From contig JACQBK010000059.1 of NCBI GenBank assembly GCA_016194505.1, positions 1 through 40,516 on the forward strand: 40,516 nt of DNA, given 5' to 3'. Made by a program: the position numbers and the translations under genes. The first letter of the stretch is position 1. Each line of letters begins with the position of its first letter. Origin of the DNA: Ignavibacteriales bacterium. Lineage in GTDB: Bacteria > Bacteroidota > Ignavibacteria > UBA10030. A model generated the notes under the pieces. The model was not told the DNA's origin, searched no databases, and saw nothing but the letters and a program-made list of their open reading frames with translations. Below are positions 8,126 through 32,672 of this stretch, piece after piece.

Positions 8126-8183
8126 TTTCATATACAAGATAGAAATTTCTTGCGAACAATCAGTGAGATTAAGCACAACGCCA

Positions 8184-9041: not shown

Positions 9042-9072
9042 ATTGTAACCAGTCAATAATGCAGGAGATGGT

Positions 9073-10077
9073 GTGAAGAAAATTTTATCAGCTATACTTT
9101 TGAGTTATTTGCTGTTCAGTACGTGCCTTTCCCAGCAGTACACCATTAAGTTTGGAACCGTCGCCCCCGACGGCAGCACGTGGATGAACGTTATGAGAGA
9201 ATACGATGCCGCCATACGAAAAGAAAGCGGCGGACGCGCAGGGTTCAAATTTTTCGCTGGCGGAGTCCAGGGCGATGAAAAAGCCGTACTGAGAAAAATC
9301 CGGTTCGGGCAACTCAGCAGTGCGGGATTTTCCGGCGTAGGTATGGGGGAAATTGCGCCGCTTGTGCGTATTCTGGACACTCCCTTCCTCGTCCGCAATT
9401 ACGCTGAAATGGATTACATTTATCAAAAATTTTCCAACGATTTTGAGAAAGCATTCGAAGATGGCGGATATATCCTGTTGGGATGGGCGGAAGTCGGGTT
9501 TGTCCATGTGTTCACGAATACAATCGTGCAGAAACCCGAAGACCTGAAATCCGTAAAAATGTGGGCGTGGGAAGGTGATCCCATTGCCGAGGTTGCTTTT
9601 TCCGAGCTTGGCATCACTCCAATCCCCCTGCCGCTTGAGAATGTTCTTACTTCCCTGCAGACAGGTCTTGTTGATGCTTTTTACACTTCTCCGTACGCGG
9701 CTGTTACCCTGCAATGGTACACGAAGGTCAAATATATGATTGATGCGCCCCTTGCCGATGCGGCAGGCTCCGTGCTTATTTCAAAAAAATATTACGATAC
9801 CATGCCAAAGGATCTTCAAGAGATTCTCGTCCGCAACGGTCGTCTTTATATGGCGAAATTGACGAAGCTTAGCCGCAAAGACAACCAAGATGCGATAGAA
9901 CAATTTAAAAAGCGCGGCGTGCAAATTCTGAAAGTTGATCCGAAAGATTTGCCAAAGTACATAGATATGGGCGCTCGTGTTCGAAAGAAACTTGTCGGTA
10001 GAACAATGTTTACCGATGAATTCGTCCAGCGGGTCGAGAAAGAGCTTGATGAATTCCGAAAGCATCCTGCAAAATAG
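9073..10077 (+). CDS. dctP: TRAP transporter solute-binding protein DctP
   Basis: This periplasmic substrate-binding subunit belongs to a tripartite ATP-independent transporter. The GTG start at 9073 has a good ribosome site (GGAGA at 9064-9068). A signal peptide (about 1-20, ending LSQQ) is followed by YTIKFGTVAPDGSTWMNVM, a typical DctP opening. Family features further on include GVQGDEKAVLRKIRFGQL, WAEVGFVHVFTN, and the segment KMWAWEGDPIAEVAFSELG, where the binding-site residues usually lie. There are 334 residues, normal for the family. The substrate cannot be read from the sequence. The membrane subunits follow immediately, nine bases downstream. Confidence 0.93.
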   Translation: MKKILSAILLSYLLFSTCLSQQYTIKFGTVAPDGSTWMNVMREYDAAIRKESGGRAGFKFFAGGVQGDEKAVLRKIRFGQLSSAGFSGVGMGEIAPLVRILDTPFLVRNYAEMDYIYQKFSNDFEKAFEDGGYILLGWAEVGFVHVFTNTIVQKPEDLKSVKMWAWEGDPIAEVAFSELGITPIPLPLENVLTSLQTGLVDAFYTSPYAAVTLQWYTKVKYMIDAPLADAAGSVLISKKYYDTMPKDLQEILVRNGRLYMAKLTKLSRKDNQDAIEQFKKRGVQILKVDPKDLPKYIDMGARVRKKLVGRTMFTDEFVQRVEKELDEFRKHPAK

Positions 10078-10086
10078 GGAGATCGT

Positions 10087-10584
10087 GTGAAACTGATTCA
10101 GAAAATTGATCAGTGGATTAACCGGCTCGAAGGAGGGTTGCTGATCTTCCTGTTGAGCATCATGGTTATTCTTGCCTTCCTCCAAGTTGCTCTCCGCAAT
10201 TTATTTTCAACAGGCATCCCCTGGGGCGATATTTTGCTTCGGCAAATAGTTCTGTGGCTCGGTTTCTTAGGCGGAACATTAGCCACAAGCCAAGAACGGC
10301 ATATCCACATTGATGCATTCGCTCACTTTATGTCCCCACGGGTGAGAGCAGCAGTGAGGATTTTCACCAATCTCTTTGGGGCTGTCGTTTGCCTTCTCCT
10401 CTTCCAGGCTGCGGTACGCTTCGTGCAATCCGAAATTGAAGCGAACACCATGATTTTTAAACAGATTCCGGTCTGGTATGCGGAAGTCATTATACCATTC
10501 GGCTTCGGACTGCATGCGATTCATTTTCTTATTCGTTCTTCTTTGAGCGCAAGTGAAGCGTTGCAGAAGGAGAGCGCAGAGTGA
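10087..10584 (+). CDS. dctQ: TRAP transporter small membrane subunit DctQ
   Basis: This is the small four-helix integral membrane subunit of the TRAP transporter. It has 165 residues from a GTG at 10087, preceded by AGGGAGA. Four hydrophobic segments fit the family. The motifs VALRNLFSTGIPWGDILLRQ and LGGTLATSQERHIHID match the conserved DctQ core. Its TGA overlaps the GTG of dctM by four bases (GTGA), so translation is coupled and equal subunit production is likely. Confidence 0.94.
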   Translation: MKLIQKIDQWINRLEGGLLIFLLSIMVILAFLQVALRNLFSTGIPWGDILLRQIVLWLGFLGGTLATSQERHIHIDAFAHFMSPRVRAAVRIFTNLFGAVVCLLLFQAAVRFVQSEIEANTMIFKQIPVWYAEVIIPFGFGLHAIHFLIRSSLSASEALQKESAE

Positions 10585-11861
10585 ATTTCTGGCTTCTCGT
10601 TTTTGTCATTGTTCTCCTTGCTCTCTTAAGCGCCCCGCTCTTTACGGTCTTTGCCGCTTTTGTGATTTTTGCTTTTTCAGCGGTAGGGACCGACCCCTCT
10701 GTTATTATCATCGAGCTGTACCGGATTGCCGAGACCCCGATGCTCGTTGCAATCCCATTGTTCGTTTTTGCGGGATACCTCCTTGCGGAAAGTAAGGCTC
10801 CACGACGCCTCGTCAATTTTGCTCAGGCGCTCTTTGGGTGGAGCACCGGCGGGCTTGCCATTGTTACCATCGTAACGTGCGCGTTTTTCACAGCCTTTAC
10901 GGGCGCTTCGGGTGTCACGATTATTGCTCTGGGCGGCATGCTCTTTCCCATTTTGCTGAAGGAGCAATATCCCGAAAAGTTTTCTCTCGGCTTAGTGACT
11001 GCATCGGGGAATATCGGTCTCCTGTTTCCGCCAAGTCTTCCGGTTATTCTTTACGGAATCATTGCCAACGTCAGCATTGATAAGTTGTTCATTGCCGGCT
11101 TAATTCCAGGCATCATCCTTATCCTCTTTCTTGCGGGATACAGCGTTTATACCGGTGCGAAGTTCAAAGTCCCGAAAATACGGTTTTCATGGGCGAATGT
11201 CTTTTCCACGGCGCGGGCGGCGGCATGGGAAATTCCGCTCCCTATTCTTATTATCGGAGGAATTTACGGCGGCGTGTTTACCGCAACGGAAGCGGCCGCA
11301 GTTACCGCGTTCTACGTCTTTATTGTTGAAGTCTTCGTGTATCGCGACTTGCATATTTTTAAAGATGTTCCCCGCGTGATGAAAGAAAGCATGATGCTCG
11401 TGGGCGCCACGCTTTCGATCTTGGGCATCGCCTTCGCACTGACAAACTATTTTGTGGACCAGCAGGTTCCGCAAAAGCTCCTGGGCCTTATTCAAAATGA
11501 AATCACGAGCCAGATGACGTTTCTGTTGATTCTGAATGTCTTCCTGCTGGTTGTTGGCATGATGCTGGAGATGTTTCCGGCTATTATTGTTGTTGTGCCG
11601 TTGATCTTGCCTATTGCGCAGGAGTTTAACGTTAACCCGCTCCATCTCGGCATTATCTTCCTTACGAACCTCGAAGTGGCATATCTTGTGCCGCCGTTCG
11701 GGTTAAATCTGTTCCTCTCAAGCCTGCGATTCCGCAAACCGGTGTTCGGCGTCGCGCGCGCGGTATTTATGTTCCTTTTGCTCGAGCTTATTGCATTACT
11801 GTTTATTACTTACGTTCCGCAATTCAGCTTGTGGCTGGTAGAAACGATGGGAACAAAATAA
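10581..11861 (+). CDS. dctM: TRAP transporter large permease subunit DctM
   Basis: This is the large, roughly 12-helix transport subunit, which moves substrate with a sodium gradient in characterised members. It has 426 residues, as usual. Conserved stretches include ETPMLVAIPLFVFAGYLLAES, FFTAFTGASGVTIIALGGML, GNIGLLFPPSLPVILYG and GIYGGVFTATEAAAVTAFY near the middle, and HLGIIFLTNLEVAYLVPPFG near the end. The start is the GTG at 10581, inside the dctQ stop. The operon tatT-dctP-dctQ-dctM ends here; no strong terminator hairpin with a T-run was seen downstream. Confidence 0.95.
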   Translation: MNFWLLVFVIVLLALLSAPLFTVFAAFVIFAFSAVGTDPSVIIIELYRIAETPMLVAIPLFVFAGYLLAESKAPRRLVNFAQALFGWSTGGLAIVTIVTCAFFTAFTGASGVTIIALGGMLFPILLKEQYPEKFSLGLVTASGNIGLLFPPSLPVILYGIIANVSIDKLFIAGLIPGIILILFLAGYSVYTGAKFKVPKIRFSWANVFSTARAAAWEIPLPILIIGGIYGGVFTATEAAAVTAFYVFIVEVFVYRDLHIFKDVPRVMKESMMLVGATLSILGIAFALTNYFVDQQVPQKLLGLIQNEITSQMTFLLILNVFLLVVGMMLEMFPAIIVVVPLILPIAQEFNVNPLHLGIIFLTNLEVAYLVPPFGLNLFLSSLRFRKPVFGVARAVFMFLLLELIALLFITYVPQFSLWLVETMGTK

Positions 11862-12725: not shown

Positions 12726-15032
12726 ATGCGCGTTCTCATGATTGTCGCACTGGCTGCGTTTGTCTTTGCAGCCCCAGAGGTGCTCGCTCAACGATGGCTT
12801 CGTCAGCTACCACAAAAGCCGGAAAGCGAGCTGACATTTAGAGATTACCAGCAGGCGTTTGAGCGTCATTACAAAGAACACCCGATAGATTTGAAATTAG
12901 ATAAGCTAAGACCAACGTTTAAATTTCAAGCTGGTCAGGAAGAGCGAGAGCGAGTGGAGATAGAAGAGCATAAGATGTTTAAGCGCTGGGAATGGTTCAC
13001 CGAACCAAGGGTATATCCAAGTGGCAAGTGGGATTTTGAAAAAATAGACGCCATACGAACCAGATTGGAAAAGGATGATAATGAACTTGTAATGAGGCAA
13101 GCTAAAATAAGTTCATTGAATGTCAGAATCGTGGAGGGAAGGATTATTTGGCCTTTCCGGAATATCTGGACGCCTTTAGGTCCTTCTGATGCTGTAGGTG
13201 GCACGAACATGGGACGAGTGAATTGCATTAAATTTGATCCGAAGAATTCTAAAATTGTCTATCTTGGTGCACCTGATGGTGGTGTTTGGAAAAGTACTGA
13301 TGGAGGAACAACCTGGGCGCCCAAGTTCGATACACAGCCCACATTGAGTGTGGGGGATATTGCTATTGACCCCGCAAACACAAATATCATTTATGTATCT
13401 ACAAGTGACGCTTTTGGATACGGTTCTCCGTTTTGGGGCGGTACCTACAGCGTCGGAGTGATGAAAAGTACAGATGGCGGCAATACGTGGGCAGCAACTG
13501 GTCTTAGCTGGACAGTTGGTCAAAACCGTACTATTCGACGCCTCGTCATCCATCCTTCTGATAGTAAAATATTGCTTGCGGCGACAAGCAATGGTCTCTA
13601 CCGTACGGCGGATGCTGGCGCAACGTGGACGCAAATCTGGGCTACGAGTACTTTTGATGTCGAATTTCAGCAGGACAACGGTAAGATTGTATACGCGACC
13701 ACTACTCAAGTATTCAAGAGCACCGATGCAGGGGCAACATTTAGCTCATTGACGGCAACTTGCGCCGGTTCTCGATATAATATAGAGATAGCCCGCAGTA
13801 ATCCGAAAGTACTCTATACGTTGTGCACAAGCGGAACCGTACAGAAAAGCACCGATGCAGGGTCTACTTGGACGACAACGACTTCGCCAGGTGTTACGCT
13901 GTATGGATACTATGACAATGTATTGGCTGTTTCGCCTGTTGACGAAAAAATTGTGTACGTCGCCGGCTTCAATATAAAACGCAGCACTGATGGAGGCACT
14001 ACATGGAGCAGCGTCAACACTGCAGGACATGTTGATAATCATTGTATTACGTTTTTGTCCGGAAGCAGCTCTACAATTTTATGTGGGAACGATGGCGGGA
14101 TTTTCAAAACTACCAACAGTGGTAACACCTGGAGCAGTCTCAACAAAACCTTGTCCATTACCCAATTTTATCGGTTGGGTATTAGCAAGACAGATGCGAA
14201 CATTATGGTCTGCGGCGCTCAGGATAACGGCAATATGAAGTATAATGCAGGAACCTTCACCAACGTTACTAATGCAGACGGGATGAAAGGTTTCATAGAC
14301 TGGAGTAACTCCAACGTCATTTATGCAGGCATCCAATACGGTGGTTTTTACCGCAGCATTAACGGAGGGACTTCTTTCACTGGCGTCAGCACGCCAAGCG
14401 GTGGTGCGTGGGTTGCGCCCTGGTGTCAAGATCCGACAGTGGCGAATACAATTTATGCCGGTACCAACAAGGTGTATAAAAGCACGAACCAAGGGACCGC
14501 GTGGACAGCTATCAGTGGCTCATTGTCCGGCATAGGGTCATTTACGGTGCTTAAGGTTGCCCCAAGCAACGCCAAATATATCTACGCGGGCAACGGCAAC
14601 AAGCTTTATCGTACAAAGGATGGCGGTACGAACTGGACGGATATAACTGCCGGACTTCCTGTTGCTGGAAACTACCTTATGGACGTGGCAATTCATGATT
14701 ATGATCCCAACATCGCCTACGTAACCTTCAGTGGTTATACGGCAGGTGAAAAGGTGTACAGAACATGCAACGGCGGTGGTGCATGGAGCAATATGAGCGG
14801 CACATTGCCCAATATGCCGGTCAACTGTATTGTGCATCAAAATACTAACAATGCTTTATATGTTGGCACAGATGCAGGAGTGTACTATATTAATGACGAC
14901 CTCAGCGACTGGATCCCTTACAAATGGGGTTTACCCAATGTTATAGTGGATGAGTTGGAGATACACTATGGCAAGAACATAATACGAGCTGCTACCTACG
15001 GACGTGGAGTGTGGCAGGCTCCCTTGAAATAG
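12726..15032 (+). CDS. Secreted BNR/Asp-box repeat (sortilin/VPS10-like beta-propeller) protein
   Basis: This is an exported beta-propeller protein of the sialidase/sortilin-like type, enzyme activity unknown. The signal peptide MRVLMIVALAAFVFAAPEV ends at LAQ. A charged linker (about 25-140) with FKRWEWFTEPRVYPSG precedes GRVNCIKFDPKNSKIVYLG and then a long series of Asp-box repeats: KSTDGGTTW, KSTDGGNTW, RTADAGATW, KSTDAGATF, KSTDAGSTW, RSTDGGTTW, KTTNSGNTW, RSINGGTSF, KSTNQGTAW and RTKDGGTNW. Similar proteins in T9SS bacteria usually end with a sorting domain. This one stops at YGRGVWQAPLK, so it may stay periplasmic or have lost its tail. The ATG at 12726 is preceded by AAAGGAGAGG. There are 768 residues. 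Confidence 0.85.
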   Translation: MRVLMIVALAAFVFAAPEVLAQRWLRQLPQKPESELTFRDYQQAFERHYKEHPIDLKLDKLRPTFKFQAGQEERERVEIEEHKMFKRWEWFTEPRVYPSGKWDFEKIDAIRTRLEKDDNELVMRQAKISSLNVRIVEGRIIWPFRNIWTPLGPSDAVGGTNMGRVNCIKFDPKNSKIVYLGAPDGGVWKSTDGGTTWAPKFDTQPTLSVGDIAIDPANTNIIYVSTSDAFGYGSPFWGGTYSVGVMKSTDGGNTWAATGLSWTVGQNRTIRRLVIHPSDSKILLAATSNGLYRTADAGATWTQIWATSTFDVEFQQDNGKIVYATTTQVFKSTDAGATFSSLTATCAGSRYNIEIARSNPKVLYTLCTSGTVQKSTDAGSTWTTTTSPGVTLYGYYDNVLAVSPVDEKIVYVAGFNIKRSTDGGTTWSSVNTAGHVDNHCITFLSGSSSTILCGNDGGIFKTTNSGNTWSSLNKTLSITQFYRLGISKTDANIMVCGAQDNGNMKYNAGTFTNVTNADGMKGFIDWSNSNVIYAGIQYGGFYRSINGGTSFTGVSTPSGGAWVAPWCQDPTVANTIYAGTNKVYKSTNQGTAWTAISGSLSGIGSFTVLKVAPSNAKYIYAGNGNKLYRTKDGGTNWTDITAGLPVAGNYLMDVAIHDYDPNIAYVTFSGYTAGEKVYRTCNGGGAWSNMSGTLPNMPVNCIVHQNTNNALYVGTDAGVYYINDDLSDWIPYKWGLPNVIVDELEIHYGKNIIRAATYGRGVWQAPLK

Positions 15033-20370: not shown

Positions 20371-22533
20371 ATGAGATATTTGATTTTCCTTGTCACGGTC
20401 GCTTTGATGGCGACCTTTTGTGCGGAGAGCCTCTTTGCACAAATACTCGAACCCATTGGTGGTCCTTACACAGCGGATACAAATACTGTGCTGCTTCTGC
20501 ACTTCGATGGGAACTTGACGAACGCTGCCGCTGCTGTAGGGAAAACGGCAGCAAACGCTGTGGCACGCACTACAAATCCAGCGAAGATATACTTCCTTAA
20601 CAATAGTGGTGTTGCTGGCATGGGGCAATGTGTCCGGATTGACAACTCATCGAGCAGTGATTCATCCTATATTACTGTTGATGATACTGCTGCTTTGGAT
20701 TTGACGGGCAATTGGACAATAGAGGCATGGGCAAACATTTTTACCTTCGGGCAAACGTCGAACGATTACCGTTGGGTACCTCGGGTCGTGATGAAACCCG
20801 GAGACGATGTGTTCTATATGCCTAATTACTGGCTTGAAATGTGGGGTGACAATCGGCTCTTCCATGCAGGCTACTACACAACCAACGGTGACTGGATCAG
20901 TGTTACATCCCCCAACAACATGTTTGTTCCTGGTGAATGGGTGCACCTTACATTTATTCGGGATACAACACGTGCATTTATCGCTTGCATGGTGCACGAT
21001 GCAAACAGGAATCTTAAAGGATTCCTCACGAAAGGCTTCGATAAAGCGAAAGACATTCCCCAAATCAATAGACAAAAACTTCACATTGGTTGGGCTGGTG
21101 CAGTTGGCATTTCTACAGCGAGCACTGATTCATGGCTGGACGGGTTTGTAGATGAAATCCGCGTCAGCAAAGTTGTGCGTAATTTTGCTGGACCTCCTGT
21201 TATTCAGGATATAACTGTTCTACCAAACCAGCCATCTACGATCCCTTCGTACGATGTCTCAGTGACAGTGTTCCCGTTGAATGCGAACGGAAGAATCACT
21301 AATGCAGTTTTGTACTTTAGGACGGACACTGTAGGAGCGTTCACTGGATATAATATGACACCGGCCGGCACTAATAAATTTACCGCCTCAATTCCGGGTC
21401 AGGCTTTTGGCAAAAGGGTTCAATACTATGTGAAGTGCACGGACGACAATGGGTATTCCTCCCTCTCGCCGGTAGATGCCGAGGCGACAACGAGCCCAAC
21501 GCGCTATGCGTTCTGGGTGTTTCAGCCGAATGCCAAGACACTCGATGTAACATTTGAAGAAGGGTTGAGCGGAAAGCCGGTTGACCACTCTACGAACAAC
21601 GCTAAGATTATCACTCACAAATATCTTGAGTATTCAACTGATCGTCCTACGGTGAGCGGTGGACAATATTCATTGTTTCTGCAATCACATGCTGGTGTAG
21701 TGGTTGACTCGAACTGGGTCGAAGCGGAATCACCATTCTTAGCGGCTGAAGAGTTCACGCTTGATGCTTGGATCAAAGCGGATTCGGCGGACTTGCACGC
21801 AACGCGGATCATTATTAACCCAACAAAAGAGGATGATTGGAATAACGCCAATTTTGAGCTTAGCTTCCGAAATGGTGCTGCAGGGAAGCCTGTATTTACC
21901 GGACGTTACTGGCATTCCTCAGGGGCAGTTGTATTACAAGATACTGCCGTAGCTGCGACGGCTCATGTCGGCAAGTGGCGTCACATTATTCTCGAGCGAA
22001 GCAAGTCTAACGGTGTTTTTGGGATGGCGATTCGAAACGAGAACGATCAATTGATGTATAAGACGTTCAAGACAGAGAGCCGAGCGCCTCTTATGGCTGG
22101 TGCACCACTTCGCATCGGTAGGTCATGGTTCCTCACGACTGATAATTGGTACGTAGCGCCATTCAGAGGGAGGATAGACAATGTCAAAGTCTATAACTAT
22201 CCTGCTGTCGGTCTTGTAACAGATGTTTCAGATGGAAGCACGGATGGAATTCCATGGGTATTCGATCTGCAGCAAAATTACCCCAACCCCTTCAATCCGT
22301 CAACGGAAATCCAGTTCACTGTTCCCAAGTTTGGGCAGGTCTCTCTTGTAATCTTTGATCTCCTCGGCCGAAAAGTCAAAACACTTATCAACGAGGAACG
22401 TCATGCAGGTCAACATAAGGTGACTTGGACTGGTACCAATAATGAGGGTGTTGCCGTAGCTACCGGTGTCTATTTCTATGAGCTGAGAGCGGGTGATTTA
22501 AGGAAGACTCAAAAGATGCTCTTAATACGTTGA
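20371..22533 (+). CDS. Surface protein with two LamG (concanavalin A-like) domains and a T9SS sorting domain
   Basis: This is a predicted cell-surface carbohydrate-binding protein of 720 residues. The ATG at 20371 has an excellent ribosome site (AGGAGG at 20358-20363). The signal peptide is about 1-26, ending LFAQ. LamG-type domain 1 (about 40-275) has TNTVLLLHFDGNLTN, WTIEAWANIF and WLDGFVDEIRVSK. An Ig-like segment (about 280-380) follows, and LamG domain 2 (about 390-615) has FTLDAWIKADS and FRGRIDNVKVYNY. The sorting domain starts near 630 with DLQQNYPNPFNPSTEIQFTV and ends KTQKMLLIR. No catalytic residues can be assigned, so glycan capture rather than hydrolysis is the simpler reading. 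It opens the export and uptake half of the locus. Confidence 0.9.
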   Translation: MRYLIFLVTVALMATFCAESLFAQILEPIGGPYTADTNTVLLLHFDGNLTNAAAAVGKTAANAVARTTNPAKIYFLNNSGVAGMGQCVRIDNSSSSDSSYITVDDTAALDLTGNWTIEAWANIFTFGQTSNDYRWVPRVVMKPGDDVFYMPNYWLEMWGDNRLFHAGYYTTNGDWISVTSPNNMFVPGEWVHLTFIRDTTRAFIACMVHDANRNLKGFLTKGFDKAKDIPQINRQKLHIGWAGAVGISTASTDSWLDGFVDEIRVSKVVRNFAGPPVIQDITVLPNQPSTIPSYDVSVTVFPLNANGRITNAVLYFRTDTVGAFTGYNMTPAGTNKFTASIPGQAFGKRVQYYVKCTDDNGYSSLSPVDAEATTSPTRYAFWVFQPNAKTLDVTFEEGLSGKPVDHSTNNAKIITHKYLEYSTDRPTVSGGQYSLFLQSHAGVVVDSNWVEAESPFLAAEEFTLDAWIKADSADLHATRIIINPTKEDDWNNANFELSFRNGAAGKPVFTGRYWHSSGAVVLQDTAVAATAHVGKWRHIILERSKSNGVFGMAIRNENDQLMYKTFKTESRAPLMAGAPLRIGRSWFLTTDNWYVAPFRGRIDNVKVYNYPAVGLVTDVSDGSTDGIPWVFDLQQNYPNPFNPSTEIQFTVPKFGQVSLVIFDLLGRKVKTLINEERHAGQHKVTWTGTNNEGVAVATGVYFYELRAGDLRKTQKMLLIR

Positions 22534-22545
22534 TGTATAAACTTT

Positions 22546-22577
22546 CACGGAGGCTGGTTTGATATCCAGCCTCTGTG
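22546..22577 (+). terminator. Stem-loop after the LamG gene
   Basis: CACGGAGGCTGG pairs with CCAGCCTCTGTG (12-bp stem with one G-T pair) around an 8-base loop, 13 bases after the LamG stop. No T-run follows, so it may be an RNA processing or stability hairpin that lets the abundant surface protein be made in excess rather than a true terminator. Confidence 0.45.
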
Positions 22578-22615
22578 GAAGGCTTGAAACGAATAGCGGA
22601 TAACAAAGATTGATT

Positions 22616-23275
22616 ATGCAAAAGCGTTCACTATATGGGGTGCTGTGTTGTGTCGTGCTGTATTTATACTTCAGTGGTTGTCAAACGGGAGTTGAGCCTT
22701 CGCCGAATCCAGGCATCTTGAGGATAACACTGAAGGCTGATGAGGCAGATACGACAATTATCATCCAGAGTGATACCTCGCGCTTTTCAAGGTGGGATGA
22801 GTTTTATTTCTTCATCTCGCAGGGAAGGCTCTATCGTGGCAGGAATTATGCGTTGTTGTACGCAGACCTCACTATTGAGCGAACTCCGGGCACCATTCTT
22901 AACATCCTTCAACGAGAATGGCTTAACGGTGCTCCAATCAAGCCAACCGATGTAACAGAAATCAACACGAAAAATAGCAGGTATAGCAAGAGCGTGATCT
23001 TCGAATCGTATGTTCCGCCTGGGGATTACGATTCACTTTCATTTGCCCTTATAGCCTATGAAATTCTCACGTTTGTGCCGAAGGTTTATCAGAATCCCGT
23101 TCAACTGCCGATGGGAACAGCTCCGCAAATTCAATTCCCGGCACACATCACAGTGCATGAAGATCGTGTCACACAAATTGATATTGAAATCTCTCCGTTC
23201 CGATCGCTTAGCCGCTATCGGGATTCTTTTTTGTTTGACAGGAAGATCAAAATTATCGGTGTTCAAAATCTGTGA
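22616..23275 (+). CDS. Predicted lipoprotein of unknown function
   Basis: This 219-residue protein has a lipoprotein signal ending YLYFSGC at Cys23. The ATG at 22616 is preferred over a TTG two codons earlier. The mature part is beta-rich: GILRITLKADEADTTIIIQS near the start, ESYVPPGDYDSLSFALI in the middle and RVTQIDIEISPF towards the end. The fold may resemble DUF4382-like or transthyretin-like domains found in lipoproteins of this phylum, where a PPGDYDxL-like turn is common, but no family can be named with confidence. It lies between the LamG protein and the GATase-like lipoprotein in one run of same-strand genes that ends in the TonB receptor, so a role in glycan binding at the outer membrane is plausible. 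Confidence 0.75.
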   Translation: MQKRSLYGVLCCVVLYLYFSGCQTGVEPSPNPGILRITLKADEADTTIIIQSDTSRFSRWDEFYFFISQGRLYRGRNYALLYADLTIERTPGTILNILQREWLNGAPIKPTDVTEINTKNSRYSKSVIFESYVPPGDYDSLSFALIAYEILTFVPKVYQNPVQLPMGTAPQIQFPAHITVHEDRVTQIDIEISPFRSLSRYRDSFLFDRKIKIIGVQNL

Positions 23276-23398
23276 TTCATAGTATATGTGGTGAGTGCTT
23301 ATAGGCGAACTTGCTATTTCAGTGCATGGTAAGTCGGGAAAACGATATACCATATCATGAAGAATTTAGGGAAGGGATTTTTTTGTAACAGGATTGCT

Positions 23399-24883
23399 AT
23401 GAAACGAATAATTGACATTGCACAAGTTGTGCTGATTATAAGTTGTGCCTTATTGCTTATGACTTGTGAAAGGCCCACTTCGCCACCTCGCCCTAACAAT
23501 CCTCCAGACACACGACTAACGAATATCCCTAAGGATAATGATACTGTCTTTGCTCTGGTAACAATGAATTGGAGTGGTGGAGATAATGATGGTTTTATCG
23601 CTCGGTATCAACATCGCTATTTCACATATCATCTTGCCCCCGGTACGAACAATACCTGGACGCTGTTCGACTCAACGAACTGGGCTGATACAACTGGAAT
23701 GAGCGTTACCATTGCATTCAATTCAACAGAGAGCATAAATCGCCAGCGATTCTTAGTAAGAGCGGTTGATAATGATGGGGATGCTGATCTCATCCCTGCA
23801 GAGAAGATACTCTATACTACCAGAACCACGCCGCCCATAACAAAAATTGTGAGTCCGGCGCGAAATGGCGTTGTTCTTGCGGTTGATCATGTGACCGATT
23901 GGTGGTCCGGAGTGCTGCTGACTTTCAAGGCAACCGATCCTACAACGGGGGGCAAAGTGGTGGAGTACGCATGGTCGGTGGATGGCAACCCGTGGAATTG
24001 GGGCGAAGATACAGTTGTGCATATTCCGCCTAATAAATTTAAGCAACCATTGAACGGGGTACATTTCATTAAGGTAACATCTCGCAACAACACCAATCTT
24101 GTGGATCCGGTGGGTGATTCCATCTCTGTTCAGTTGATGATACCGCCCTTTGATAAGAAGATATTGATTATTGATGAGACGGATGAGTTCAATAATCCCT
24201 TTATCACATTGGGCATTCAAGATTCCACGGTAGATCGATTTTACGCGGAAGTATTTCCCGGCTCAGATTCATGGGATTTTAAGAAAAACGGGATGCCGCC
24301 TCGGGATGTGCTTGGACACTATAAACTGGTTGTGTGGCACGCCGATGATGTTCCTGCTGCAACGCCGCACAAAATCTCAGATCCCAACAACATTGCGGTT
24401 TTTACGGACTATCTAAAAGTGGGTGGGAAGTTTCTTATGAGCGGCTGGAGAATTTTGAAATCATTTGCTTACTACGATAACTTCCCATTTACATTTCAAC
24501 GAGGGACATTCGTGTACGATTACCTGCATATTTACACGGTTGATGAGACGCAAATCATAGGGGATTGTCTTGGCGGGCAGGGTTCACCAGGAGCCTTCAG
24601 TGATTTTCGCGCCGATTCCGCTCGGCTTGCCTTTTTCCCTTATGATGGGAAGCTTGCGCAAGTAAATCTCATTACAAAGATGGCGGGGTTTACGGATGTT
24701 CTCTATTCGTATGTGAACTCGAGCAACAGTCCGTTTGTAAAGTACCGCGGCCGAGCAATTGCTCTTCGCTACTATGGCACTGTGTTCGATGCGGTGGTGC
24801 TGGGATTCCCGATGTATTTTATTAGGAAAGATGATGCAAAAGTGATGGCCGGAGAGATTCTTCAAAGCCTCCATATCAATTGA
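23399..24883 (+). CDS. Lipoprotein with FN3/Ig-like domains and a C-terminal GATase/ThuA-like fold
   Basis: This protein has 494 residues from the ATG at 23399, which places the lipobox LLMTC at Cys25. An upstream in-frame ATG at 23357 would add 14 residues ahead of the signal and is less likely. The N-terminal half has fibronectin-like pieces: NNPPDTRLTNIPKDND, a DNDGFIARYQ strand, RQRFLVRAVDNDGDAD, and a second module near VEYAWSVDGNPWNWG. From about 245 the sequence turns alpha/beta: DKKILIIDETDEFNN, YKLVVWHADD and FTDYLKVGGKFLMSGW, the pattern of a glutamine-amidotransferase-like or ThuA-like Rossmann fold. The nucleophile Cys expected of true amidotransferases is not evident. Its TGA overlaps the next ATG (ATGA), linking it to the TonB receptor. 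Confidence 0.75.
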   Translation: MKRIIDIAQVVLIISCALLLMTCERPTSPPRPNNPPDTRLTNIPKDNDTVFALVTMNWSGGDNDGFIARYQHRYFTYHLAPGTNNTWTLFDSTNWADTTGMSVTIAFNSTESINRQRFLVRAVDNDGDADLIPAEKILYTTRTTPPITKIVSPARNGVVLAVDHVTDWWSGVLLTFKATDPTTGGKVVEYAWSVDGNPWNWGEDTVVHIPPNKFKQPLNGVHFIKVTSRNNTNLVDPVGDSISVQLMIPPFDKKILIIDETDEFNNPFITLGIQDSTVDRFYAEVFPGSDSWDFKKNGMPPRDVLGHYKLVVWHADDVPAATPHKISDPNNIAVFTDYLKVGGKFLMSGWRILKSFAYYDNFPFTFQRGTFVYDYLHIYTVDETQIIGDCLGGQGSPGAFSDFRADSARLAFFPYDGKLAQVNLITKMAGFTDVLYSYVNSSNSPFVKYRGRAIALRYYGTVFDAVVLGFPMYFIRKDDAKVMAGEILQSLHIN

Positions 24884-27675
24884 TGAGTGTTTTTATGTCT
24901 AAGGGTATGCTTATGGTAAATTGCAGAGCGCTCGCTTTTACACTGGTACTCTGCCTTGTCAGTACGATGTCATTGTTGGCGCAAAGTATCGGTAAGATTG
25001 CCGGAACTGTTCGCGATAAACAAACAGGGGAAGTTTTGCTTGGTGTCAATGTGGCAGTGAAGGGGACGACACTTGGCGCGGCGACCAATGAAGATGGTTT
25101 TTATTACATTCTTCGCGTTCCTCCAGGGATGCATCAACTTCAGGTTTCTATGATTGGTTACAGAACTGTTACGATCCGAGAGGTGCACGTACAAATTGAT
25201 TTGACGACAGAAATTAATGTGCAGCTCGAGCAATCGTCCGTTGAGATGGGCGAGGTCGTTATCACGGCAGAGCAGAAATTAGTACAAAAGGATGTTACCT
25301 CGACTCGCCGGACGGTTTCGCGGGAGACTATGCGAGAAACGCCCGGTCTTGAGTCGGCAGGCGATATTTTCAAATTGCAGGCAGGCACCGTTCTCTCGAG
25401 TGTACCGCAAACGTTGAGATTAGCAGATGGTTCTCAACTCCAAGTGCGGGATGAAAGCTTGAAGGATATTCACATCCGCGGCGGGCGTGGCGGTGAGATT
25501 CTTTATATGGTTGATGGCATGCCCGTTACCCATCCGATCTATGGCGGACGGGATGTATTGGATCTCAATGTGGTAGATGTTGAGAACGTTGAGCTTCTCA
25601 CCGGAGCGTTCAATGCTGAATATGGTCAAGCACAATCAGGGGTGGTCAATATCACAACGCGCAGCGGCGGAGAGCACTACAAAGGGGGTATTGAATACAA
25701 AACCGATGAGTGGAAAGTTTTCGGAGAATCCTATAGTACTCATTACGGCTCATTCTATCTTGGCGGACCCGAACCGATGACGCAGAAATTACTTCCTGCG
25801 TTGGGAATTAAGGTGCCAGGGGAGATAAGTTTTTTTGTCTCCGGCAATGGGAGCCTGACGAATACTCCCTACAATAACAACCGTTCAAGGGATAAGTTTT
25901 CATTATTTGGTTTTCAGATCACGGAAAAACAAGATAATGCACAAAACCTGAACGCAAAGATCAACTATGATATTACCTCTGCGTATAGGTTAGCGCTCAG
26001 TTATCATGGTTCTTGGAAACAATGGAGCAGCTTTGATTGGGCGTGGAGGGATTATCATAACAAGACCGCCGCCTATAAACGCAATAACCACGCCGCGAAT
26101 TTGATGTTTAGTCATGTGCTTTCTAAATCAACCTACTATAGTTTGAATTTCGGTTACCTTGGGGTGACATATAACGGCTCATGGAATGGCAAGAGACCTG
26201 TTGATTTTTGGATAAAAGATAGCACCGGCAGATTGATATCAACCATTGCTTCACCACAAATAGACCCGCGCACGGGTTTTTATGATAACCGGGGATTTGA
26301 AAACATCTGGAGAGATGATCGCACCGCTACGTACACGTTTAAGGGAGATATAACCTCTCAGGTTCATCCCGCACATTTGATGAAAACAGGCCTTGAGGTT
26401 CGTTATAACGATATCAGCTACATTGATATTCAAGATGGAGGGGTAAAACTTTCGCGTTATGGGCAGGGGATTGATTCCCTTCCTCCGCCAGGTCCTTTTC
26501 CGGAGTTTGGCCAGAACCGTTGGGTGTTTAACGTTAAACCCATTATTGGTGGCGCATATCTTCAAGACAAATTCGAATTGGAATATCTTATCATCAATGC
26601 CGGAGTCCGTGTGGATTGGCTTACGCTGGGGCAGGCCATTATGGAAGACGGTTGGAAGAGAACGTGGGAACGAGCCACAGGACTTAAAGCTGACTGGGGA
26701 CAAACAATGTACAAAGTAAGCCCACGCTTCGGTATCTCGTTCCCGATTTCTGAAAACACAGTCGTCTTTTTCTCCTACGGTCACTTCAATCAATTACCTG
26801 AATTACAATTCTTTTACCGCGATCCCTACAGCGGAGGGTTCACAGGAAATCCGAAGCTCGATTATGAGCAGACGATTTTATATGAATTCGGCTTTACCCA
26901 TCAGTTATCGGATGCTTGGGCTTTTGATATCAAGAGCTACGCGAAGGATATCTCGAAACAGATTGGAACCACGCTTGTCTATGGAAAGGAGGGCATACCA
27001 GTGGAGTTGTATGATAATAAGGGGTATGCACGTGCACGGGGGTTGGAATTTGAAGTGACAAGGAGTCGTTCTGAAATTCTATCGGGTAAAGCAACGTACA
27101 CAATTCAATGGACAAGCGGCTACTCATCTTCCGCATTTGACGATTACATCCGGTCCACGACAAATTTTCCCTATCCGATCCGTGAGCGTCCCTTAGGGTG
27201 GGATGTACGTCATCAGGTTATTTTTCAAGGAACATTAGCGGCGAGCCAGAATCAACATCCATCGCTGTTTGGACTTGAGTTGCCCGATAACTGGAATCTT
27301 ACACTGCTCTATAGGTTTTCTACAGGGTCTCCGTACACGCCCGGAGAGGCAAGTCTGAACCCTGTGGAGGCACAAAAAAGAGAAAATACTGCAACAGGCC
27401 CTTCTTTTTCTTCTACTGATTTGAAATTTGAGAAAGGGTTTAATCTCTGGGGAGTTCGAGTCGCCTTTACCGCAGATATATTTAATCTTTTTGATCAAAA
27501 GAATATTCAGATGAGTTACGGGTTCAATACGTGGACAGGAAAACCATTTCGCTATGGTGATATACAAAGCCCTCAACTTAATTTTAATGATTACTATATT
27601 ATGCTCAGCATCATGGATCCTCGCCAGTTCTCAACAGGGCGGACAGCGAAGCTTGGCGTTCGGATAGATTTTTAA
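24883..27675 (+). CDS. TonB-dependent outer-membrane receptor with carboxypeptidase-regulatory N-domain
   Basis: This outer-membrane channel takes up ligand with energy from TonB/ExbBD. It has 930 residues from the ATG at 24883, which overlaps the preceding stop. A signal peptide ends MSLLAQ near residue 35. The CarboxypepD_reg-like domain (about 38-120) has GKIAGTVRDKQTGEVLLGVN. The plug domain has DIHIRGGRGGEILYMVDGMP and NVVDVENVELLTGAFNAEYG, ending GVVNITTRSGG. The remaining 650 or so residues are the beta-barrel, with an aromatic terminal strand (KLGVRIDF). It is SusC-like in layout, but no SusD gene follows; the next gene encodes a T9SS-type protein instead. Import of galactose-containing oligosaccharides is inferred from the neighbours. 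Confidence 0.93.
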   Translation: MSVFMSKGMLMVNCRALAFTLVLCLVSTMSLLAQSIGKIAGTVRDKQTGEVLLGVNVAVKGTTLGAATNEDGFYYILRVPPGMHQLQVSMIGYRTVTIREVHVQIDLTTEINVQLEQSSVEMGEVVITAEQKLVQKDVTSTRRTVSRETMRETPGLESAGDIFKLQAGTVLSSVPQTLRLADGSQLQVRDESLKDIHIRGGRGGEILYMVDGMPVTHPIYGGRDVLDLNVVDVENVELLTGAFNAEYGQAQSGVVNITTRSGGEHYKGGIEYKTDEWKVFGESYSTHYGSFYLGGPEPMTQKLLPALGIKVPGEISFFVSGNGSLTNTPYNNNRSRDKFSLFGFQITEKQDNAQNLNAKINYDITSAYRLALSYHGSWKQWSSFDWAWRDYHNKTAAYKRNNHAANLMFSHVLSKSTYYSLNFGYLGVTYNGSWNGKRPVDFWIKDSTGRLISTIASPQIDPRTGFYDNRGFENIWRDDRTATYTFKGDITSQVHPAHLMKTGLEVRYNDISYIDIQDGGVKLSRYGQGIDSLPPPGPFPEFGQNRWVFNVKPIIGGAYLQDKFELEYLIINAGVRVDWLTLGQAIMEDGWKRTWERATGLKADWGQTMYKVSPRFGISFPISENTVVFFSYGHFNQLPELQFFYRDPYSGGFTGNPKLDYEQTILYEFGFTHQLSDAWAFDIKSYAKDISKQIGTTLVYGKEGIPVELYDNKGYARARGLEFEVTRSRSEILSGKATYTIQWTSGYSSSAFDDYIRSTTNFPYPIRERPLGWDVRHQVIFQGTLAASQNQHPSLFGLELPDNWNLTLLYRFSTGSPYTPGEASLNPVEAQKRENTATGPSFSSTDLKFEKGFNLWGVRVAFTADIFNLFDQKNIQMSYGFNTWTGKPFRYGDIQSPQLNFNDYYIMLSIMDPRQFSTGRTAKLGVRIDF

Positions 27676-27689
27676 TCGGGAGAGTGAAA

Positions 27690-29468
27690 GTGAACTTTAT
27701 GTCTCAACGATACGCAAATTACGTTATTCTTTGCCTTGTTCTTTTTTGTAGCACAAGTGCAATGTTTGCTCAATTTACGAAGCTCGACTGGAAAGTCCAC
27801 AACGTCGGCAAAGTGCGTCAAGTTGTAACGAATATGGGCACACTCAATAAGGCGTTAACAAGATTTCCCGGTTTGATCAACTCTGAGTTCCCGCCGGGGA
27901 GCGACGAGGAGCACCTCTATCAAGGAGGGCTATGGGTTGGCGCAATTACGCCTACGGGAGATACGCTGGTATCAACCACGCAAGCGCATTTTACCCCCAA
28001 TGAATTCTTTCCCACAGCCGCTCCATGGGATACGATTTGGGTTGCTTCAAAGGGAGACACACTCCAGATTCCATACTGGCCGAACTATGCCGGTATGTCG
28101 GATCAAGATTTTATCTGCCGGTATAGCGATTACAATGTATTGAACATTGATAATCACGTGCCACTGTATCTCGATGTCATTCAAACGAGCTACGCATGGG
28201 GCTCACCTCCGGTTGATGAGTTCATCATTTACAAATATTATATCGTACCGAAGAAATTTCCGCTGAAGAACGTCTATGTAGGATTTTGGATGCACAGTTC
28301 TGTTGGCAGCATTAACGCGGGCGATAACTTTATTGATGAGCTTACTCATTATTTCCCCGAGTACCGCATGGCCGTTGCCGAGGACGACCGCTATGGAAAT
28401 GACGGACTGGCTATTAGTCCGATTGGATTCAGGGTTCTCAATCCCACCGATGGCGGACTCTCGTGGGCTTTTAAATACTACGAGCACGAAGACCTCCCTA
28501 ATAGAGACCCTGCTGTATATAAAGGAATGGCGAGCGGCACAATTATGCCGGACCGGCTTGATCCTGCACGTGCCCATATCGTTCTTGCATTTGGTCCGTT
28601 TCAAGCAAACGTGAATGATACTATCAAGGTAGAAATGGCTGAAGTTTTTGGCTATGGGATGAAAGGTCTCTTAAAAAACGCCGAGTATCTGAACTTCTTG
28701 AAGACGAAGGGCTTCAAAGTTCCTTCACCGCCGCCCAAGCCCGTTTTCCGGGTTACAACTGGCAGCCACGAAGTCCGTATTGACTGGCATCCCTTGGATA
28801 ATAAAACAAACCCGGAATTGTACGAAGACCCATCGCGAGGCGATACGATCAGAAAACCTTTTGAGGGTTACCGCCTCTACAAAAGCACGAAAGGACTTGA
28901 CGGTCCTTGGTCCTTGTTGGCAGAGTATGATCGTATTGATGATATTGGGTTCAACACCGGTTTACAGTATGACTATAGAGACGTTGGGCTTTTGAATAAT
29001 GTAGAATACTATTATACCCTAACAACGTATTCCAAGCCGGATCATACCATTAACTTTCCTTCTCAGGAAACAAGCCTAAGGGTAAATGCGCGGACAGTAG
29101 TTCCCGGAGTACCGCCTCCACAAACCGTTGGTGAAGTTGCAGTGGTTCCCAATCCGTATCGGGGAGACATCGCCTATAGTTCGTATAATCCTTCATGGGA
29201 AAAACCTCAGGGAAGTCGGCCGTGGTGGATGGAACAGGATCGGCGTATTCAATTTATCAACTTGCCCGAACGATGTGAAATACGAATTTATACGTTAGCG
29301 GGGGATTTGGTGAACACGATCCGCCACGAAAATTCGATTAAAGGCTTTGAAGATTGGAATCTTACATCGTCGGTCGGACAAGCAATTGCCAGCGGCATCT
29401 ATTTATTCACAGTTGAAGATTTAAACAATGGAACGGCGCAAGTGGGGAAGTTTGTCGTTATTAAGTAG
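27690..29468 (+). CDS. Large exported protein with FN3 module and T9SS-type C-terminal domain
   Basis: This protein has 592 residues. GTG at 27690 has good spacing to GGGAGAG (27678-27684); ATG 27699 is the alternative, and both keep a signal peptide ending SAMFAQ. The main part (about 30-360) belongs to no named family I can recall. It contains FPGLINSEFPPGSDEEHLYQ, GGLWVGAITPTGDTLVST, and FICRYSDYNVLNIDNHVP. A fibronectin-like module (about 350-470) with FEGYRLYKSTKGLDGPWSLL follows. The C-terminus has VVPNPYRGDI, ERCEIRIYTLAGDLVNTIRH, ASGIYLFTVED and KFVVIK, a divergent sorting domain. It sits directly after the TonB receptor, where SusD would be in a classical locus, and before a PorV-like gene. 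Confidence 0.75.
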   Translation: MNFMSQRYANYVILCLVLFCSTSAMFAQFTKLDWKVHNVGKVRQVVTNMGTLNKALTRFPGLINSEFPPGSDEEHLYQGGLWVGAITPTGDTLVSTTQAHFTPNEFFPTAAPWDTIWVASKGDTLQIPYWPNYAGMSDQDFICRYSDYNVLNIDNHVPLYLDVIQTSYAWGSPPVDEFIIYKYYIVPKKFPLKNVYVGFWMHSSVGSINAGDNFIDELTHYFPEYRMAVAEDDRYGNDGLAISPIGFRVLNPTDGGLSWAFKYYEHEDLPNRDPAVYKGMASGTIMPDRLDPARAHIVLAFGPFQANVNDTIKVEMAEVFGYGMKGLLKNAEYLNFLKTKGFKVPSPPPKPVFRVTTGSHEVRIDWHPLDNKTNPELYEDPSRGDTIRKPFEGYRLYKSTKGLDGPWSLLAEYDRIDDIGFNTGLQYDYRDVGLLNNVEYYYTLTTYSKPDHTINFPSQETSLRVNARTVVPGVPPPQTVGEVAVVPNPYRGDIAYSSYNPSWEKPQGSRPWWMEQDRRIQFINLPERCEIRIYTLAGDLVNTIRHENSIKGFEDWNLTSSVGQAIASGIYLFTVEDLNNGTAQVGKFVVIK

Positions 29469-29520
29469 CAGGCTCGTTTGTTATGGGATCGTTGAATCAA
29501 TATGGAGGCGAAGAACGGCA

Positions 29521-30441
29521 ATGATTGGTAAGCTCATCAGTTTTGTCTTATTGATGCCGGTACTCCTTTTTTCTCAATACAACCGCCCCGGAAGCACGGA
29601 TGCACAATTTTTGAAAATCGGCATCAGTCCGCGCGGAACGGCAATGAGCGATGCCTACATCGCTGCTGTCAATGGAGCCGAAGCGACATACTATAACTCT
29701 GCCGCTCTCCCTTTGATTAAAGGGACGGATGTTGTGTTCAACCACACGATGTGGTTTGCAGGCATTAATCATGAGTTTTTCGCGGTTGCACATAACTTTG
29801 GAGAGCTTGGTGCAGTTGGAGTGTCACTGACGGGATTGTACACGGACGAAATGAAAGTTCGGACGCCGCTTCAGCCTGAAGGAACGGGTGAAACATTTTA
29901 CGCAGGCAATTACCGCGCAGGTCTCAGCTATGCTCGATATTTAACGGATCGTGTAACGTTTGGTGCGACAGTAAGTTACATTTCAATGTCGCTCTATTCG
30001 GGATTTTCAGCAAACGCCTTTTCGATTGACATAGCAACACTCTACGTCTCGGATTATCGCGGCTTTCGCTTTGGCATGCAAATAGGAAATTTCGGATCCG
30101 ATATTCAATATGTCAACGAGTCGTATCCCTTGCCAACAAACTTTACCTTTGGGCTTGCCATCAACGCGATTGATGCCGAGACCCAAAAGTTATTGGTTAG
30201 CGGTTCCGCTGTGAAACCAAATGAAGGTGAGCCGATGGCGCAGGTTGGCACCGAGTGGAATTATCAGAATACCTTCTTTGTGCGTGCCGGGTATCGGCTC
30301 AATCATACCGTTGCGACCTATTCGTTCGGCGGGGGAATGCAATTCGGCGTTGGAGAGTATCACCTGCGGGCTGATTATTCGTACAGCAATTATCTTTTGC
30401 TGGGAGGTGCGCATCGTTTTGGCATTGGGGTTTTTTACTAA
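29521..30441 (+). CDS. PorV/PorQ-family outer-membrane beta-barrel protein
   Basis: This is a predicted FadL-like barrel of the PorV/PorQ group, whose members assist T9SS by passing or anchoring sorting-domain proteins. It has 306 residues from the ATG at 29521, preceded at 12 bases by GGAGG. The signal peptide (about 1-18) ends LLFSQ. The family opening is clear: FLKIGISPRGTAMSDAYIA, then GAEATYYNSAALPLIKGTDV. Alternating strands run to the aromatic end HRFGIGVFY. True PorV is longer (about 390 residues), so this is likelier a locus-specific paralogue. Its place behind the T9SS-type protein suggests it serves that protein or the TonB receptor. Confidence 0.85.
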   Translation: MIGKLISFVLLMPVLLFSQYNRPGSTDAQFLKIGISPRGTAMSDAYIAAVNGAEATYYNSAALPLIKGTDVVFNHTMWFAGINHEFFAVAHNFGELGAVGVSLTGLYTDEMKVRTPLQPEGTGETFYAGNYRAGLSYARYLTDRVTFGATVSYISMSLYSGFSANAFSIDIATLYVSDYRGFRFGMQIGNFGSDIQYVNESYPLPTNFTFGLAINAIDAETQKLLVSGSAVKPNEGEPMAQVGTEWNYQNTFFVRAGYRLNHTVATYSFGGGMQFGVGEYHLRADYSYSNYLLLGGAHRFGIGVFY

Positions 30442-30555
30442 CATCCCATCAAATGTTTCTTAACGAATTATTTTCCCACCTGCTTTTTTCGTTAATAAGT
30501 GTACGTCGCGCGATTATGTTGACAATTTTGATTACATGAGGAGTCTAAGACTATT

Positions 30556-32604
30556 ATGAAATATTTCTACTTACTTTTTTTCCAAATCATCCTTTCTTTC
30601 TTCTTGCAAGCACAAGAGGGGAAACAGTTTCTCTCCGATCTTTCTGTTACAAAAAATTTACCTCTTTACACCACGTACGCGGCAGCAATGGAGCGCTCGG
30701 AATTTACATTGGACGAGGGGTACCATTTCCTGTTTTATGACTCGACACGAGGAGCAGATTTTATTACGGACAACGCGGGAGATTGGCACTTGACGTTTCA
30801 GAGAGGATCGAAACATGTCTATATGCTCAAAGATATGTTTAAGGAGCCGGTGATCACCGCATCATATTCTGACATTGTGAAGTATACCTATCTTCCATTC
30901 GAGGATATCAAAATTGATGTCACGTTTCTGGTGTACAGCTCGCGCATTGCCATTCAAGAAATTGCGGTCACCAACCTTGGTTCCGAGAAAACTTCACTCG
31001 AGGCGATAGTTTCCCTGCAAAACATGAAACGTGCGTTTCATGATATCGCCTTTGACAAAGGGAAAAATACAATTGTGTTTTCACACGAAGAACCTCCCGA
31101 TAGCTGGGTGACGAGCCATAACATTCCACATGTTACGCAAGTACACGACTTATTGTTGTTTTCCCACCCTCCGGATCGTATGTCAAGTCAGTCTGAAATC
31201 GGGAAGGGACCAGAGGTCGAAGGCAGCATAGCGAGTCTCGCAAAGGTCATTTCTTGTGTAACAAAACTTGAAGTAGCTCCCAAGTCAACAAAGCGCCTTC
31301 GAGTTATCAGAGCAGTTCGCCGCTCTGAGGAAGAGCAGGAAAAGCTGGTTGCGACTGCGCAGAAGCTGATGAGAGAAGACCTTGATAAGTATGTTAAGGA
31401 GGATGAAAAACTTTACAGCAGTATTCCACTTCCTCAATTTGATGATTCCGAAAAGAAGGCGTTGTACTGGAGTGCATTTACATTGATGCGGCAAGTGATG
31501 TTGCCTCCCGAAGGCAAAAGTAGCTACAACTATTATGTATTTTCCCGCGAGCCACAGTGGGGATGGGGGCACGGCGGGCAGGTGTTTCATGAAAGCCTGA
31601 CCATGCTCGCGTACGCCGCTATGGATCCACTCAGTGCTATGAATTCTCAACGCGTATTTCGTGAGAGACAGCTTGCCGATGGTTACATCAATTATCGCAC
31701 CGGCCCTTATCTGGATGAAACAATCCCCTATGAAGGTCAGTTAACGACCTCGGCACCGTGGTATGCGTGGCAGAATTGGGAGGTATATAAAATCAGCAAG
31801 GATAAGAAATTCTTGCGAGAAATGTACGAGTCGAGCGTATTATTCTACAACTACTATGTTAAAAATAGGGATAGCGATGGCGATGGCTTATGCGAATGGG
31901 GAGCGCATGCGGTTTTAGAATGTGTACGTGATGGGCTTGTTGCGGTATGGGATAAAGTCGGTTGGCCAAGCAATTTCGAGGCGCTTGATTTGAATTGCAT
32001 GCTCGTACAGGAAGAAAAAGCCCTTTCTGCAATGGCATTGGAATTGGGGCTTTCCAGTGAGGCGAAAGAATGGGAACAAAAGGCAAGCGAGCGAACAAAA
32101 AAAATCAATGACACGATGTGGGATGAAGAGACCGGCTTCTATTACCATGTTGATAAAAAGAATCACTCATTCACATTTAAAGAGAAAAACGATTTAAAAA
32201 GGGAAGAGATCATCGGTTTTCTGCCGTTATGGGCGGGGATAGCTGACCAACAGCGAGCACAGAAACTGGTGCAAAAGCTTACTGATCCAAAAAAGTTTTG
32301 GAGAACGTATGGCGTTCCTTCGCTTGCCGCAGACGACCCATACTATAACCCAAAAGGATATTGGAATGGACCTGTATGGGTAGAATGGAATTACCTGATC
32401 CTTCGGGGATTACTTGATTATGGATACACCACGGAGGCGAAGGAACTGGTTCAGCGGGTCTCTTCAAACATGATTGCCCATTTGAAAAAAGACCATACAT
32501 TTTGGGAGCTGTACAGCCCGGATGAACAATGGGCAGGGCATAATAAGACGTACATTTGGGCTGGCCTGATCAGTCGGATGCTGATGGATGTTGCTGAACA
32601 CTGA
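30556..32604 (+). CDS. Exported (alpha/alpha)6 glycoside hydrolase (MGH1/GH63-like)
   Basis: This glycosidase of the clan GH-G type has 682 residues. A signal peptide (about 1-19, ending LQAQ) and a ribosome site AGGAG precede it. The N-terminal beta-sandwich (about 20-270) is followed by helical repeats. Diagnostic pieces are FSREPQWGWGHGGQVFHES, the segment around GYINYRTGPYLDET, RDSDGDGLCEWG, WPSNFEALDLNC, and near the end NPKGYWNGPVWVEWNYL and DEQWAGHNKTYIWAG. These resemble mannosylglycerate hydrolase, trehalase and GH63 enzymes, which use an Asp acid and a Glu base. There is no sorting domain, so it probably works in the periplasm on imported oligosaccharides. The exact sugar is not evident; alpha-linked glucose, mannose or galactose are all possible. 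Confidence 0.8.
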   Translation: MKYFYLLFFQIILSFFLQAQEGKQFLSDLSVTKNLPLYTTYAAAMERSEFTLDEGYHFLFYDSTRGADFITDNAGDWHLTFQRGSKHVYMLKDMFKEPVITASYSDIVKYTYLPFEDIKIDVTFLVYSSRIAIQEIAVTNLGSEKTSLEAIVSLQNMKRAFHDIAFDKGKNTIVFSHEEPPDSWVTSHNIPHVTQVHDLLLFSHPPDRMSSQSEIGKGPEVEGSIASLAKVISCVTKLEVAPKSTKRLRVIRAVRRSEEEQEKLVATAQKLMREDLDKYVKEDEKLYSSIPLPQFDDSEKKALYWSAFTLMRQVMLPPEGKSSYNYYVFSREPQWGWGHGGQVFHESLTMLAYAAMDPLSAMNSQRVFRERQLADGYINYRTGPYLDETIPYEGQLTTSAPWYAWQNWEVYKISKDKKFLREMYESSVLFYNYYVKNRDSDGDGLCEWGAHAVLECVRDGLVAVWDKVGWPSNFEALDLNCMLVQEEKALSAMALELGLSSEAKEWEQKASERTKKINDTMWDEETGFYYHVDKKNHSFTFKEKNDLKREEIIGFLPLWAGIADQQRAQKLVQKLTDPKKFWRTYGVPSLAADDPYYNPKGYWNGPVWVEWNYLILRGLLDYGYTTEAKELVQRVSSNMIAHLKKDHTFWELYSPDEQWAGHNKTYIWAGLISRMLMDVAEH

Positions 32605-32639: not shown

Positions 32640-32672
32640 TTCTTCGACAGTTTAACTGTCGAAGAAATTTTT
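32640..32672 (+). terminator. Intrinsic terminator after the glycosidase gene
   Basis: TTCTTCGACAGTT at 32640-32652 pairs exactly with 32654-32666, giving a hairpin with TTTAA at the tip, followed at once by ATTTTT. It lies 36 bases after the stop at 32604 and probably ends the transcript that contains the TonB receptor and PorV-like genes. Confidence 0.75.

Follow-up and report, generated by a model that had tools for sequence, protein, structure and literature searches.

The window, the whole stretch of DNA that was analysed, is a complete contig (C57) of 40,516 nucleotides from the draft genome of an Ignavibacteriales bacterium, a genome of 2.28 Mb in 137 contigs. The genes of the locus described here all share one reading direction and are as follows.

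20371..22533, forward strand: LamG surface protein of 720 aa, with two LamG stretches (PF13385, 5.7e-19) and a T9SS type A sorting domain (TIGR04183, 36.5 against a cut-off of 23)
22610..23275, forward strand: lipoS, a small lipoprotein of ~221 aa with a lipobox-like FSGC and no known family
23357..24883, forward strand: lipoL, a large lipoprotein of 508 aa with predicted Ig/Fn3-like domains and a predicted alpha/beta C-terminal domain (model pLDDT 92)
24883..27675, forward strand: TonB-dependent receptor of 930 aa, with CarboxypepD_reg, Plug and TonB barrel domains (PF13715, PF07715, PF00593)
27690..29468, forward strand: MID, an exported protein of 592 aa with a predicted beta-sandwich N-domain, Fn3 domain and T9SS-type CTD (structure model, Foldseek, PorZ-type C-terminus, CTD residues and alignment)
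29521..30441, forward strand: outer-membrane barrel of 306 aa, of the PorV/PorQ family by NF033709 and not canonical PorV
30556..32604, forward strand: GH63/MGH1-like glycoside hydrolase (PF22422, 4.9e-50)
32640..32666, no strand assigned: terminator-like hairpin of 12 perfect pairs with T-runs on both strands (consensus match only)

A sequence-only reading of the same DNA had named the genes from the LamG protein to the barrel, and every open reading frame was found where that reading placed it. It had set two lipoproteins and a LamG surface protein upstream of the receptor, with one lipoprotein gene overlapping the receptor gene, and both features are seen. The overlap is between the stop of lipoL and the receptor start, which is either 24880 (TTG) or 24883 (ATG). 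MID is 594 aa long if read from 27684 and 592 aa if read from 27690, the gap from the receptor gene being 8-14 bases, and it stands in the gene order where SusD would be expected. Comparison of neighbourhoods showed an orthologue of the LamG cargo at the identical position in close relatives, in which related glycosidases also come after the PorV-like gene, and lipoS precedes lipoL in an order that is kept throughout the window-type arrangement. The hairpin has by far the longest stem of the 19 found and, as it lies with its T-run 3' of the GH63-like gene, the end of the unit was placed at 32604. On the basis of this consensus match only, the unit probably extends from 20371 to 32604 and the GH63/MGH1-like gene is probably its final member. 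Elsewhere the window holds a full TRAP transporter operon, which includes a TAtT (T-component) lipoprotein and adjoins a two-component system (8163-11861), and a Sortilin/Vps10 (BNR) repeat protein of 768 aa (12726-15032).

The receptor and the place of SusD

The receptor had been described as a SusC-like TonB receptor. Its CarboxypepD_reg, Plug and barrel domains confirm that it is TonB-dependent, but by the curated SusC/RagA model TIGR04056 it is not a true SusC, scoring 94.8 bits where the cut-off is 368 (89.8 in a second scan) with its best stretch confined to residues 39-274 and not spanning the full length; the label is therefore right in a loose sense only. A true SusC does exist in the same genome, on contig C51, where it scores 716 bits with the same model and stands beside a true SusD.

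The absence of SusD from the locus was borne out, as Pfam scans of 26 window ORFs gave no match to the SusD models. MID and lipoL gave no Pfam match at all, SusD included, their structure models are beta-rich and no SusD fold was among the 50 best PDB matches listed. The suggestion that MID might turn out to be a known SusD-type protein can thus be set aside, and its CTD keeps T9SS signature residues. Other candidates for the role of SusD were also considered and rejected. A hidden SusD under another Pfam family is contradicted by the window ORFs scanned, none of which matched a SusD model, and by the near-absence of PF07980 and PF14322 in the order; the LamG cargo lies outside the core in distant loci; and lipoL is predicted to have Ig/Fn3-like domains and an alpha/beta domain. 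MID was found in 28 of 29 genomes from the same order (G032-G060), PF07980 in one and PF14322 in none. The module thus occurs where SusD is nearly absent, which is counted in favour of the explanation preferred below.

Comparison with SusCD systems (TIGR04056 with PF07980/PF14322) shows that in both a TonB receptor with a CarboxypepD_reg N-domain adjoins the gene of an exported partner, and that sugar genes surround the window copy and the copy on contig C111. The differences are that the receptor of the module falls far below the SusC cut-off, that its partner is a beta-rich T9SS-type protein whereas SusD is an alpha-helical lipoprotein, and that the module adds a PorV-family barrel while the genome keeps its true SusCD pair elsewhere.

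MID and the PorV/PorQ-family barrel

In the fold that AlphaFold predicts for MID (mean pLDDT 86), an N-terminal beta-rich domain is followed by an Fn3-like one and by a CTD. With Foldseek the N-terminal part proved weakly similar to GH94, GH116 and related enzymes (TM ~0.3, rmsd mostly 6-10 A), in what we take to be the non-catalytic beta-sandwich domains of those enzymes, together with matches to Fn3 modules and to PorU/PorZ. The C-terminal ~70 residues match the C-terminus of PorZ (E 1.4e-6), at a score of 27.1 bits that covers the C-terminus only and lies far below the PorZ equivalog cut-off of 260; the ends of two paralogues match it as well. No match to TIGR04183 or PF18962 was found on MID at E 0.01. 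The CTD carries the motifs of type A in most cases, with the near-C-terminal Lys in 72/75, PNPY in 70/75 and GxY in 74/75, in a register inferred by way of a type A tail from the window against the solved CTD 8glj chain D, a comparison with a chance-level E-value. The role of the near-invariant Lys in type A CTDs has been described (PMC10994853). The PorZ match and the type A signature residues agree with the sorting-type C-terminus that had been claimed for the 592-residue protein. Searches of MID and the barrel against PDB sequences returned chance-level matches only.

A short PorV/PorQ-family barrel had been expected after MID, and the gene product there scores 174 bits with NF033709 against a cut-off of 90 (its paralogues 219 and 181). 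By the equivalog models it falls well outside PorV (66, cut-off 250), PorQ (62, cut-off 220) and PorV2 (60, cut-off 325). The barrels of the three complete triads in the genome are closer to each other than to other PorV paralogues. Two more PorV-family genes, one of them in tandem with a second, stand directly after T9SS-type CTD genes with no TonB receptor (L035:4548-8226 and L038:2-1918), and this genome may make general use of dedicated PorV-like partners. Its canonical T9SS block lies on one strand at L031:3707-12936, where PorU (994 bits) and canonical PorV (279 bits) are encoded together with a protein of 224 aa and an inactivated M6-like metalloprotease cargo.

Conservation and context of the module

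The order receptor-MID-barrel is repeated on contigs C111 and C80, and on C102 up to the contig end, where it is incomplete. Since the same order is found at three full places in the genome and in most relatives, the association of the three genes is above chance. Conserved adjacency had been proposed as a check and was found across several phyla: among the matches listed, 36 of 37 well-flanked loci, the window included, have both a receptor gene and a PorV-like gene no more than six genes from MID. The order is MID-x-x-receptor-PorV in 24 of these, receptor-MID(n)-PorV in 11 and receptor-PorV-x-MID in one. Taking all complete-MID loci among the matches listed, 75/109 have both genes on the same strand within the stretch fetched, some of the remainder being cut by contig ends. 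A caveat that applies to these counts is that many loci are related and do not represent independent events, so that weight is placed on the three orders and the several phyla; the loci were picked by similarity to MID and not by their neighbours. The large lipoprotein lipoL is present in each of the three gene orders and is the fourth core member of the module.

Homologues of MID were found in 136 of 150 genomes of relatives and, in a sample spread evenly over the phylum, in 129 of 297 at E <= 1e-20. Among the matches listed, with MAG binning and taxon labels as deposited, MID loci occur in Ignavibacteria, KSB1, Calditrichota, Neomarinimicrobiota, Fermentibacteria, WOR-3, Gemmatimonadetes, Zixibacteria and Rhodothermales. 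Variants were also seen. Two or three tandem MID genes share a single PorV-like gene at L072:8903-12505, L123 and L124. MID paralogues stand alone at L088, L089, L100 and L101, those at L100:6770-13568 and L101:7587-10379 forming tandem arrays with neither a receptor nor a PorV-like gene nearby and those of L101 being without a CTD. The loci L135:18630-19712 and L136:8063-8992, which belong to the other two arrangements, have the gene of an NHL six-bladed-propeller lipoprotein immediately after that of the PorV-like protein.

Tree correlations were highest between receptor and MID (r 0.974), followed by receptor and barrel (0.927) and by barrel and CTD (0.863), values that include shared species history and in which longer proteins give less noisy distances. 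With the barrel controlled for, the receptor-MID correlation remained high (partial r 0.87). Direct co-evolution of barrel and CTD was considered and rejected, there being no signal beyond that of the receptor (partial r 0.07 with the receptor controlled for). The trees support the inheritance of these genes as a single unit in which receptor and MID form the tightest pair, and do not prove contacts. That the module is conserved we regard as practically certain.

The ligand can be approached through the neighbouring genes. Galactokinase is encoded upstream of the window copy and a GH63-like enzyme, GalT, a GH127-like enzyme and a LacI regulator downstream, while the neighbours of the C111 copy are a GH94/GDE-like enzyme and an ABC importer whose binding protein is of sugar type. 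The ligand of the window copy is thus probably a galactose-containing, perhaps an arabinose-containing, oligosaccharide. Galactose is a reasonable proposal; arabinose is a weaker one because the GH127 family is broad, clear as its Pfam domain is in the window, and the GH127-like protein stays far below the one close equivalog model, aceric acid hydrolase, at 93 against 950 bits. A search for LacI operators near the locus gave three matches against 2.1 expected, and no match lay upstream of the locus. Among the neighbours checked in the second arrangement there were no carbohydrate enzymes; they were an NHL lipoprotein and a type A cargo of the ordinary kind, whose match to CBM56 is weak and sub-threshold, so that the module is not evidently tied to glycans. 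The description of the region as a glycan-uptake locus therefore fits the sugar genes around the window copy but not the module as a whole, which is not evidently glycan-specific, the glycan context being that of this copy and one paralogue only.

A candidate mechanism and its rivals

The explanation preferred here, whose whole chain we consider evenly balanced between right and wrong, is a TonB-dependent outer-membrane importer with a surface partner delivered by type IX secretion, and not a SusD lipoprotein. MID would leave through the SprA translocon by way of its CTD; the adjacent PorV/PorQ-like barrel would collect it and keep it held at the surface with the CTD uncleaved, as PorQ does with PorZ; MID, aided by lipoL, would lie over or beside the receptor and capture a ligand; and the receptor would draw the ligand in with TonB energy. 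We infer the surface location of MID, the retention of its CTD by the barrel, and both the capture and the nature of the ligand. In favour of the chain are the conservation of the unit and its repetition in this genome, the type A residues and PorZ-like end of the MID CTD, the correlation of the receptor and MID trees, the sugar genes around two copies, and the SprA, PorU and canonical PorV encoded elsewhere in the genome. A SusD-independent complex of receptor, exported protein and barrel had been put forward in the sequence-only reading and is plausible, given that the adjacency is conserved, that MID is not of SusD type and that its CTD has T9SS signature residues; what does not stand is the receptor as a SusC. 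Counted against the chain are the tandem MID copies with one barrel (L072 and L123), which show that the pairing is not strictly 1:1, the other genes between MID and barrel in the second arrangement, the lone MID paralogues and the missing barrel-CTD co-evolution beyond the receptor.

The barrel may serve as anchor or shuttle for MID by analogy with two known pairings. In Porphyromonas PorZ is held by PorQ, and PorU by PorV, at the surface with the CTD retained (PMC5562754, PMC10202324). There too a PorV/PorQ-family barrel is paired with a CTD-bearing surface protein, and the C-terminus of MID matches that of PorZ; however, the module barrel does not reach the equivalog cut-offs of PorV or PorQ, MID is without predicted PorZ propellers and the module is linked to a TonB receptor. 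In Flavobacterium the gene of a type B cargo is often followed by that of its cognate PorP/SprF barrel (PMC12618676). The position of a shuttle-like barrel gene directly after the cargo gene is the same (PMC12618676, PMC9143113), whereas the CTD of MID carries type A signature residues and the module barrel is of the PorV/PorQ family, with a single sub-threshold PorP match in a paralogue.

A third likeness, to BamG-BamH of the Bacteroidota BAM complex, in which a FadL/PorV-like barrel holds a surface protein beside another barrel (PMC12611786, PMC12578637), leads to the rival that survives best. Here MID would be ordinary T9SS cargo of the housekeeping PorV/PorU and the barrel a FadL-type channel or a holder of a surface lipoprotein, as in BamG-BamH, that does not bind the CTD. 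We consider this unlikely. In its favour, PorU and canonical PorV are encoded in the genome (canonical PorV on contig C69), the CTD of MID keeps residues suited to PorV, control for the receptor leaves the barrel tree following the receptor and not the CTD, both PorV and BamG are relatives of FadL (PMC12611786, PMC12578637), and lipoL, as a core member, could be held by such a barrel. However, in the window-type arrangement the barrel gene lies directly 3' of the CTD gene, as is true of 5 of 12 PorV-family places in the genome, which suggests service to the CTD. With the BamG model two paralogues reach 35 and 23 bits, against 250, and the window barrel gives no match. The module differs from BamG-BamH also in its neighbour gene, which encodes a TonB receptor and not BamA.

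Less probable still is that the genes are merely co-regulated in nutrient-scavenging loci, MID being released or covalently attached and acting away from the receptor with no complex formed. In favour of this, PorU usually cleaves CTDs that are type A-like, and MID paralogues exist with no receptor or barrel, but it is opposed by close linkage across three gene orders and several phyla and by the best tree agreement being that of MID with the receptor. Least probable, by a little, is a general nutrient or envelope system with sugar genes local to this copy, which would fit the second arrangement (an NHL-propeller lipoprotein with type A cargo) across Ignavibacteria and the C80 copy, near peptidase S41 and TPR genes, but not the sugar genes around the window and C111 copies, and which in any case bears on the ligand and can hold together with the mechanism preferred here.

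The preferred importer would belong to what looks like a real but apparently undescribed nutrient-import module, no description of it having been found in the open full-text literature (subscription papers and preprints were outside the scope of the search). We would propose, tentatively and as a possibility with the balance against it, that it represents a second, SusD-independent class of two-part TonB importer in FCB bacteria and some phyla beyond, with a T9SS capture protein that is kept uncleaved at the surface by a dedicated PorV-family barrel, itself a member of the complex. If true, this would join TonB import and type IX secretion, which are now treated apart. Current work has PorV serving every type A CTD (PMC12618676), and it would then be shown that type A-like CTD proteins can have dedicated PorV-family partners. 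It has been suggested that cognate PorV-like barrels shield the CTD from cleavage (PMC10202324), and the module would provide a test of such protection. It could also explain the import of large nutrients in bacteria that are almost without SusD, such as most of this order.
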